DNA of 64,000 nt from Paludibacteraceae bacterium. GTDB lineage: Bacteria > Bacteroidota > Bacteroidia > Bacteroidales > Paludibacteraceae. The position numbers were made by a program, and so were the translations under genes. A model generated the notes under the pieces. That model was not told the origin of the DNA. It did no database searches and was given only the letters and a program-made list of their open reading frames with translations. Of the stretch, positions 23,236 through 23,602 are shown piece by piece; position 1 is the stretch's first letter, and each line of letters begins with the position of its first letter. The stretch spans positions 1 to 64,000 of the forward strand of contig JAFZKQ010000075.1 in NCBI GenBank assembly GCA_017553575.1. Reading direction: 5' to 3'.

Positions 23236-23258
23236 ACTACGCAAAAAGAGTGCGTAGT
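23236..23258. repeat. Perfect 8-bp hairpin before the Y-RNA promoter
   Basis: ACTACGCA (23236-23243) and TGCGTAGT (23251-23258) around AAAAGAG, 8 bases upstream of the -7 element. It could be an operator or end of an upstream transcript. Confidence 0.45.
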
Positions 23259-23266
23259 AGCGCCTA

Positions 23267-23274
23267 TACATTTG
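23267..23274 (+). promoter_or_regulatory. -7 element for the Y-RNA/rsr locus
   Basis: TACATTTG matches TAnnTTTG. Transcription would start near 23281, about 36 bases before the first RNA stem. Confidence 0.5.
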
Positions 23275-23316
23275 CAATGTCAAACGAATAAACGAGTTCA
23301 TTGATTATTTGAAATA

Positions 23317-23418
23317 GGCGGCGGTTGCCGTAGTGGAGAGTTACTTCGAGATTGCTATTCCGATTGAACCCTACGGTTCAAATCTACTCTCTACGCTTGT
23401 CGCACCGCTGCCCCTTTT
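23317..23418 (+). ncRNA. Y-RNA-like RNA 1, upstream of rsr
   Basis: The two ends pair as GGCGGCGGT (23317-23325) / ACCGCTGCC (23404-23412), then an asymmetric internal loop TGCCGTA (23326-23332) / GCTTGTCGC (23395-23403), then a 9-bp helix (23333-23341 / 23386-23394, one G-U). An apical hairpin GATTGAACC / GGTTCAAATC (23362-23384) caps it, and TTTT follows at 23415. The same internal loop recurs in the next RNA while the helices differ and still pair. End-to-end helix, conserved loop, T-run and position before a Ro60 gene are the marks of a Y RNA. The loop is the likely Rsr-binding site. Confidence 0.8.
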
Positions 23419-23420
23419 AT

Positions 23421-23521
23421 AAGGAGTGCCGTAGGGAAGGGATACTTCGCAATGGTTAGGCCTCGGTTATGCAGAGGCTCAAGTTCAAATCTTGGACCCT
23501 TCCCGCCTGTCGCCTCCTTTT
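23421..23521 (+). ncRNA. yrlA: YrlA-type Y RNA 2 with tRNA-like module
   Basis: Ends pair AAGGAG (23421-23426) / CTCCTT (23514-23519); the internal loop TGCCGTA (23427-23433) / GCCTGTCGC (23505-23513) is the same as in RNA 1 but for one base; then helix GGGAAGGG (23434-23441) / CCCTTCCC (23497-23504). Inside is a tRNA-like part: a D-loop-like AATGGTTAGG, an anticodon-like arm GCCTC-GGTTATGCA-GAGGC (23460-23478), and a canonical T-arm TCAAG-TTCAAAT-CTTGG (23479-23495). This is the architecture of YrlA RNAs known from other bacteria. It ends in TTTT. It is not a tRNA: it has no acceptor stem or CCA site. Confidence 0.85.
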
Positions 23522-23526
23522 ACTAT

Positions 23527-23602
23527 ACGGCAACAAGGCAGAGCAGGGGTTTCCTCAGAAGGTGAACCCAAATAAAAAACTCTGCGTTGGTTACGCCGTT
23601 TT
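23527..23602 (+). other. Third stem structure between YrlA and rsr
   Basis: ACGGC (23527-23531) / GCCGT (23595-23599) and GCAGAG / CTCTGC form a bulged helix, with an inner hairpin GGGTT / AACCC, followed by TTTTG, 28 bases before the rsr start. It lacks the TGCCGTA/TGTCGC loop of the two RNAs upstream. It could be an attenuator in the rsr leader or a third small RNA. Confidence 0.45.

Follow-up and report, generated by a model that had tools for sequence, protein, structure and literature searches.

A reduced tRNA-like Y RNA beside Ro60 in a Paludibacteraceae genome and its permuted relatives

RNA2, a Y RNA encoded beside a Ro60 gene in a Paludibacteraceae bacterium, carries a reduced tRNA-like module. 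We consider it probable that RNA2 is a Ro60-bound, reduced form of a tRNA mimic that we call class B, and that it serves as a tether or gate whose elbow docks an effector such as PNPase. As defined here, a class B RNA holds a 3′ D strand, an anticodon arm, a T-arm, a capped acceptor and a 5′ D strand, all within the Ro60 stem. We infer that RNA2 is transcribed, bound by Ro60, contacted at its elbow by an effector and modified. The window, by which we mean the whole stretch of DNA analysed, comprises the first 64,000 nucleotides of contig JAFZKQ010000075.1 (assembly GCA_017553575.1).

Results

Parts and fold of RNA2

RNA2 and its parts have the following positions in the window; L003 is the locus of a syntenic homologue in a genome of the same genus.

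23421-23519, + strand: RNA2, Y RNA with a reduced tRNA-like module (class B model, 60.3 bits; syntenic homologue in L003)
23421-23426, + strand: outer (Ro60-side) stem, 5′ strand AAGGAG (partner 23514-23519; the helix covaries in class B)
23428-23434, + strand: GCCGUAG, conserved motif of the Ro60 module, 5′ side (common to Y RNAs of related arrays)
23434-23441, + strand: inner stem, 5′ strand GGGAAGGG (partner 23497-23504; pair probabilities)
23443-23449, + strand: conserved UACUUCG element (WNCTTCR in related Y RNAs)
23451-23459, + strand: 3′ half of the D-loop, AAUGGUUAG, GG being positions 18/19, with no D-stem partner (alignment to class B and L003)
23460-23478, + strand: anticodon-like hairpin, 5 bp GCCUC/GAGGC, 9-nt loop GGUUAUGCA (pair probabilities)
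23479-23495, + strand: T-arm, 4 bp plus U-G, loop UUCAAAU at 23484-23490 (folding; T-stem CAAG/CUUG as in L003)
23497-23504, + strand: inner stem, 3′ strand CCCUUCCC (pair probabilities)
23508-23513, + strand: UGUCGC, conserved motif of the Ro60 module, 3′ side (related arrays and folding)
23514-23519, + strand: outer stem, 3′ strand CUCCUU (folding)

RNA2 has two marks of a Y RNA. Its terminal stem is in two parts (6 and 8 pairs) around a motif on both strands, GCCGUAG/UGUCGC, and its gene lies beside Ro60/Rsr. All eight pairs of the inner stem form, with probabilities of 0.91-1.0. Inside the stem, the 5-bp arm with a 9-base loop that a preliminary description had noted is predicted with probabilities of 0.99-1.0. 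AAUGGUUAGG lies 5′ of this arm; the D-loop-like piece of the same description thus exists, but it has no D-stem. The T-arm is also present with its UUCAAAU loop. Its stem, however, had been given as five pairs and consists of four Watson-Crick pairs and one U-G wobble. From energy alone the four pairs have a predicted probability of 0.65-0.66 and the wobble one of 0.16. The loop is a perfect G-UUCAAAU-C, the GUUCAAAUC motif. When the insert of RNA2 was shuffled, a G53-UUCRANY-C61 loop on a stem with at least 4 of 5 pairs appeared in 103 of 200,000 sequences.

The folding energy of RNA2 is unremarkable (z −1.56; insert alone +0.31), and we rejected it as a proof by itself. The case is carried by comparison: by the class B model, which matches RNA2 with an E-value of 1e-12 within the 64-kb window, and by the syntenic homologue. 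The adjoining Ro60 gene, and the arms recovered by homology and folding, are consistent with the earlier view of RNA2 as a Ro60-associated RNA with tRNA-derived arms.

RNA2 is not recognised by tRNA models as it stands: ARAGORN does not call it a tRNA, and an Rfam scan over RNA2 at E ≤ 5 lists neither tRNA (RF00005) nor YrlA. The preliminary description had expected no tRNA call and had proposed the Rfam YrlA model as a check on its label "YrlA-type". The label does not hold, since that model is silent and the YrlA topology has no anticodon arm. We also rejected an unpermuted tRNA fold of RNA2 in which the Ro60 stem would act as acceptor. It requires a 3-bp D-stem with a probability of about 0.01, ARAGORN is silent, and homology places UACUUCG in the Y core.

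The window copy and its homologue

Two of the four genomes sampled in the genus have a class B-type match, the window genome and G036. The Ro60 of G036 is 84% identical to that of the window. Its locus (L003) carries three RNAs in the same order, and its RNA2 is a full class B RNA of 127 nt, compared with 100 nt in the window. After the T-arm, GA in window RNA2 replaces CCATCAGTTCGCTGATGTTAGCTCAATT of G036. The T-stem, the inner stem and the motif are unchanged between the two.

At the level of sequence, window RNA2 has lost about 27 nt, containing the acceptor hairpin and one D-stem strand, and has kept the D-loop GG and the T-loop as putative elbow pieces; the loss is seen once, in one draft assembly (125 contigs). 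The word "intact" of the preliminary description does not hold if it is taken to mean a whole tRNA module: the T-arm and the anticodon-like arm are present, but the acceptor hairpin and the D-stem of the syntenic homologue are gone. Lacking the acceptor and the 5′ D strand, RNA2 reaches 60.3 bits on the class B model (R1), below the 94-158 bits of full members. It scores 53.3 bits on the class A model (R2), so that the model alone hardly assigns RNA2 to a class. Synteny and alignment with one genome (G036, L003) support a descent from class B.

RNA1, RNA3 and the surroundings of the array

RNA2 stands between two other RNAs, behind a set of upstream signals and in front of the Ro60 gene.

23237-23257, no strand assigned: operator-like inverted repeat CTACGCA-N7-TGCGTAG (27 of 53 arrays have a repeat of type CGCA-N7-TGCG upstream; frequency in control stretches, 2.1%)
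23267-23274, + strand: Bacteroidota −7-like box TAnnTTTG, TACATTTG (found in 37 of 53 arrays; frequency in control stretches, 5.7%)
23296-23304, + strand: boxA-like GTTCATTGA (TC(T/A)TTGA precedes the first Y RNA by no more than 80 nt in 30 of 52 arrays; controls, 2%)
23317-23412, + strand: RNA1, Y RNA whose insert is a simple hairpin (23364-23381), not a tRNA-like module (fold z −4.45; Ro60-module model match, 38.6 bits; compensatory change in L003)
23527-23599, + strand: RNA3, stable hairpin where a third Y RNA would stand, its Ro60 motif gone (fold z −3.09)
23630-25141, + strand: Ro60/Rsr protein, TROVE and Ro60 vWA domains (PF05731, 2e-28; PF25045, 1.2e-7)

The operator-like repeat, the −7-like box and the boxA-like element (23237-23304) precede the array and are conserved in relatives.

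RNA1 folds as a simple hairpin, as the preliminary description had it. That description had also seen RNA1 as a reduced sister of RNA2, pointing to TACTTCG and GGTTCAAATC. TACTTCG does occur in both RNAs; it is not special to them, WNCTTCR being found in 119 of 133 distinct array Y RNAs. GGTTCAAATC is present in RNA1, not as a T-loop but as a strand of the 7-bp hairpin TTGAACC-CTAC-GGTTCAA. This hairpin shows a compensatory change, TTGAACC/GGTTCAA in the window and TCGAACC/GGTTCGA in G036. A T-loop was sought in RNA1-like elements of other arrays, and those checked had none. The reduced sister is thus not supported, and we take RNA1 to be a separate hairpin Y RNA. RNA3 in the window has AACAAGG where G036 (L003) keeps TGCCGTAG, the Ro60 motif, which suggests that RNA3 has decayed or been re-purposed.

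The Ro60 gene lies directly downstream of RNA2 and is the next gene after the Y RNA cluster. Its product is distant from Rsr (NCBIfam Rsr, 24.3 bits; cut-off 900). Among solved structures, the best sequence matches to 23630-25138 are 9L5Y and 9KOP ("TROVE domain-containing protein", E 4e-23). Further downstream, at 28193-29677 on the minus strand, lies a bacterial serpin gene (PF00079, 5e-62). Across the genome, the two class models give clear Y RNA scores to RNA1 and RNA2 alone. The genome also encodes TruB and a PNPase-like protein with two RNase_PH domains in one 717-aa frame. In more than 20 related loci, RtcB and Ro60 are no more than a few kb apart; in the window genome the two lie on different contigs.

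Y RNA arrays of related Ro60 loci

We compared 80 genome loci and 20 IMG/VR contigs with Ro60 relatives, the arrays coming largely from gut and rumen Bacteroidales. Y RNA arrays flank Ro60 upstream or downstream, with the same stem and UACUUCG just inside it. A scan for the motif plus two stems gave 157 matches on the same strand as Ro60 and a few on the opposite one. UACUUCG (23443-23449 in the window; most Y RNAs of loci L003-L088) is nearly invariant regardless of the insert. When the scan required the WNCTTCR element it returned 164 distinct RNAs, 96 of them without a T-arm.

Several arrays are interleaved with true tRNA genes. Genes for tRNA (often Met CAT; also Lys and Ser) lie between Y RNAs at L012 2152-2225, L014 2195, L023 2198, L025 522, L038 236, L035 2085 and 2274, and in L046 and L047; in L046, 13 tRNA genes follow closely after Ro60. 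The IMG/VR contigs L135 and L136 (2352-2958), which may be viral or bacterial DNA, combine Y RNAs of class A and class B with Ro60, RtcB and a tRNA-like gene.

Other Y RNAs hold partial tRNA modules (L079 4343-4456, L080 5458, L099 2786-2896): a D-arm, a hairpin and a T-arm without an acceptor, or a T-arm and little else. Module reduction thus seems to have happened more than once. In L063 3353-3484, L082 4074-4207 and L099 2905-3036 the T-arm sits inside a domain closed by GGGG...CCCC, possibly a further tRNA-like layout.

Class B, a D-loop-permuted tRNA inside a Y RNA

In class B the Ro60 stem opens the D-loop, and a complete tRNA, anticodon arm included, is circularly permuted. The order is D-loop 3′ half GUGGUUA, 3′ D-stem GAAC, anticodon arm, T-arm, capped acceptor and 5′ D-stem UAGUUCA. 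Class A begins with the T-arm, goes on with the capped acceptor stem and ends with a complete D-arm; its Ro60 stem takes the place of the anticodon arm. Class B RNAs occur in about 20 related Ro60 loci from Bacteroidales and one Chitinophagales. Several Bacteroidales have them, a more distant example is found in a Niastella genome (L077), and two IMG/VR contigs, alike over that stretch, carry them as well. At least 12 loci have class A and class B together in one array.

Covariation supports the predicted class B topology. In a set of 20 distinct sequences, which includes the reduced RNA2 and whose alignment was fitted to the model, 97.7% of cells are paired (84.9 ± 0.7 when shuffled) and 23 of 32 pairs have changed on both sides (10.1 ± 2.0 when shuffled). 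Covarying pairs make up 5/5 of the anticodon arm, 4/5 of the T-stem, 4/6 of the acceptor and 1/4 of the D-stem. An earlier MAFFT alignment of 10 class B sequences gave the same picture (97.2% paired; 14/32 pairs changed on both sides). RNAfold on the single sequences of L023 and L003 found the D-stem, anticodon arm, T-arm and acceptor hairpin unaided. Once un-permuted, 13 of 16 class B modules are tRNAs to ARAGORN, as are 0 of 800 shuffled controls. The class A fold is equally supported. The two models separate full members: class B RNAs score 94-158 bits on R1 and about 41-65 on R2, and class A RNAs 83-147 on R2. In an order-wide genome search with a loose threshold, tRNAs dominated the matches of the class B model.

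The anticodon loops of class B vary. Those of 7 nt have U33 in 13/16 and G37 in 15/16, counts that are not independent because the sequences are related. A strict TrmD-type G36G37 rule was rejected, being broken by L133, L134, L035 and L054. Other members have loops of 3 nt (L003) or 10 nt, or an insert of about 43 nt, as in the class B RNA at L034 2153-2322.

ARAGORN calls some class B Y RNAs tRNA-Arg or tRNA-Leu as they stand (L012 1885-1961, L015 2135-2220, L023 1767-1853, L025 91-177). They are thus a likely source of the false tRNAs to be expected in annotations. The arm layout of class B is different from that of YrlA, the one Y-RNA family model checked. We found no description of class B in the literature searched; primary Y-RNA papers lay outside that search, and an earlier description may exist.

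Discussion

A mechanism for RNA2

By analogy, RNA2 most likely works like other bacterial Y RNAs. It would be produced together with RNA1 from one array and bound by the Ro60 protein whose gene follows just downstream, the two-part stem with GCCGUAG/UGUCGC being the Ro60-binding module. The insert would be a remnant of a class B tRNA mimic. A loss of about 27 nt in the window lineage would have taken the acceptor hairpin and the 5′ D-stem strand, and the freed 3′ D strand would now pair inside an enlarged anticodon-like hairpin. What remains, the D-loop GG and the T-loop, would be the two pieces that form a tRNA elbow.

Ro60 would hold the stem, and the insert would be the effector face. The elbow mimic could then dock and gate an effector that recognises tRNA-like RNA, with PNPase as the leading candidate. 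The T-loop would be open to TruB-type modification, and acceptor-based contacts would be gone. Elbow contact and TruB recognition are expected because RNA2 keeps the D-loop GG and the T-loop; the T-loop motif and a TruB gene are both present in the genome. YrlA carries modifications made by DusA and TruB and, together with Rsr, guides PNPase towards structured RNA (review PMC8394870; PMC7790460). The PNPase link is taken from Deinococcus, and the window Ro60 is only distantly related to Rsr.

Alternative explanations

RNA2 could also be a decaying remnant whose insert has no function. Only the Ro60 stem would then matter, as a simple tether or a stabiliser of Ro60. The large deletion, the neighbouring RNA3 without its Ro60 motif and the abundance of array Y RNAs that lack a T-arm (96/164) fit such a history. 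Yet the T-loop, its closing G-C pair, the D-loop GG and both stems are intact. An inner stem with all eight pairs and a perfect T-loop in a reduced RNA argue against plain decay, which we regard as unlikely. Far more improbable is an ordinary YrlA (class A) identity for RNA2. A Ro60 neighbour, a T-arm and the known tRNA mimicry of YrlA (PMC8394870) would suit this label. However, RNA2 does not score above the 69-bit YrlA cut-off and is absent among the genome's YrlA matches, which lie elsewhere, fall below the cut-off and, where inspected, sit on tandem tRNAs. The order of parts already contradicts the label as well: YrlA runs from T-arm through capped acceptor to complete D-arm, whereas in RNA2 the D-loop half with its GG precedes an extra hairpin and the T-arm, the reverse of the YrlA order.

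Two further explanations concern class B as a whole. In one, class B RNAs and RNA2 might be kept by Ro60, in an RNA-repair operon, as decoys or inhibitors against enzymes that target the anticodon arm of tRNA, such as anticodon nucleases and modification enzymes. The class B anticodon arm is kept and covaries, its 7-nt loops favour U33 and G37, RtcB is a neighbour and spare tRNA genes are interleaved; a role as competitive inhibitor has been suggested for YrlA (PMC7790460). Class B anticodon arms could serve as decoys in this way, but the 9-nt loop of window RNA2 has neither the U33 nor the G37 feature, and the 3-nt loop of L003 and the insert of about 43 nt in L034 do not suit it either; for the set including RNA2 we think it quite unlikely. 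It is scarcely credible that class B loci encode working tRNAs in permuted form, released when the transcripts are cut and rejoined by an enzyme such as RtcB, and that RNA2 is a dead copy. The un-permuted modules do pass as tRNAs, RtcB is adjacent in relatives, and permuted tRNA genes exist elsewhere (PMC3978253). Against this stand the loops of 3, 10 and about 43 nt in some members and the conserved Ro60 stem. The acceptor stem often has 6 bp capped by 4 nt, which leaves no room for 7 bp plus N73. We therefore keep the reduced, Ro60-bound class B mimic as our preferred reading of RNA2.

We think a broader claim rather unlikely: Bacteroidota Ro60 operons may use two tRNA permutations, often together, one in the YrlA order and one in a D-loop order that keeps the anticodon arm. 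The second would be a class not recognised before, with an anticodon arm that makes contact with anticodon-directed enzymes, and RNA2 would be its natural minimal form, reduced to the elbow.

Together, class A (a tRNA without the anticodon arm), class B (a complete tRNA) and RNA2 (an elbow plus hairpins) make up a natural series that bears on the question of what a Y RNA has to copy from a tRNA, and for which partner. Commensal Ro60 RNPs have been discussed as triggers of lupus (cited in PMC8394870).

Comparison with known systems

YrlA (RF02553; S. Typhimurium YrlA, PDB 6CU1) is, according to PMC11472068, a circularly permuted tRNA. Both class A and class B resemble it in their two-part Ro60-binding end stem, in the permuted tRNA inside with its T-arm and an acceptor in the form of a capped hairpin, and in their place beside Ro60 and often RtcB. 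By alignment of the YrlA consensus structure, class A array RNAs have the YrlA order. YrlA has its Ro60 stem at the anticodon position, a complete D-arm and no anticodon arm, whereas class B has the Ro60 stem in the D-loop and a complete anticodon arm. Window RNA2 differs from YrlA also in lacking the acceptor hairpin and the D-stem, and the YrlA model does not match it. With tRNA (RF00005), RNA2 has the T-arm in common, and the full set of arms is found in its class B relatives; RNA2 itself scores with neither ARAGORN nor the tRNA model. In the permuted tRNA genes of algae and archaea the tRNA halves are reversed, as in class B. Class B differs from them as a mimic with a tiny capped acceptor and a Ro60 stem, and with no sign of processing to tRNA. 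Like the Bacteroidota Y RNAs, the Deinococcus Y RNA and YrlB are adjacent to Ro60 and have a long interrupted stem with a variable insert. The Bacteroidota Y RNAs are set apart from these by the GCCGUAG/UGUCGC motif, by UACUUCG and by their arrays of several RNAs, some with tRNA genes.
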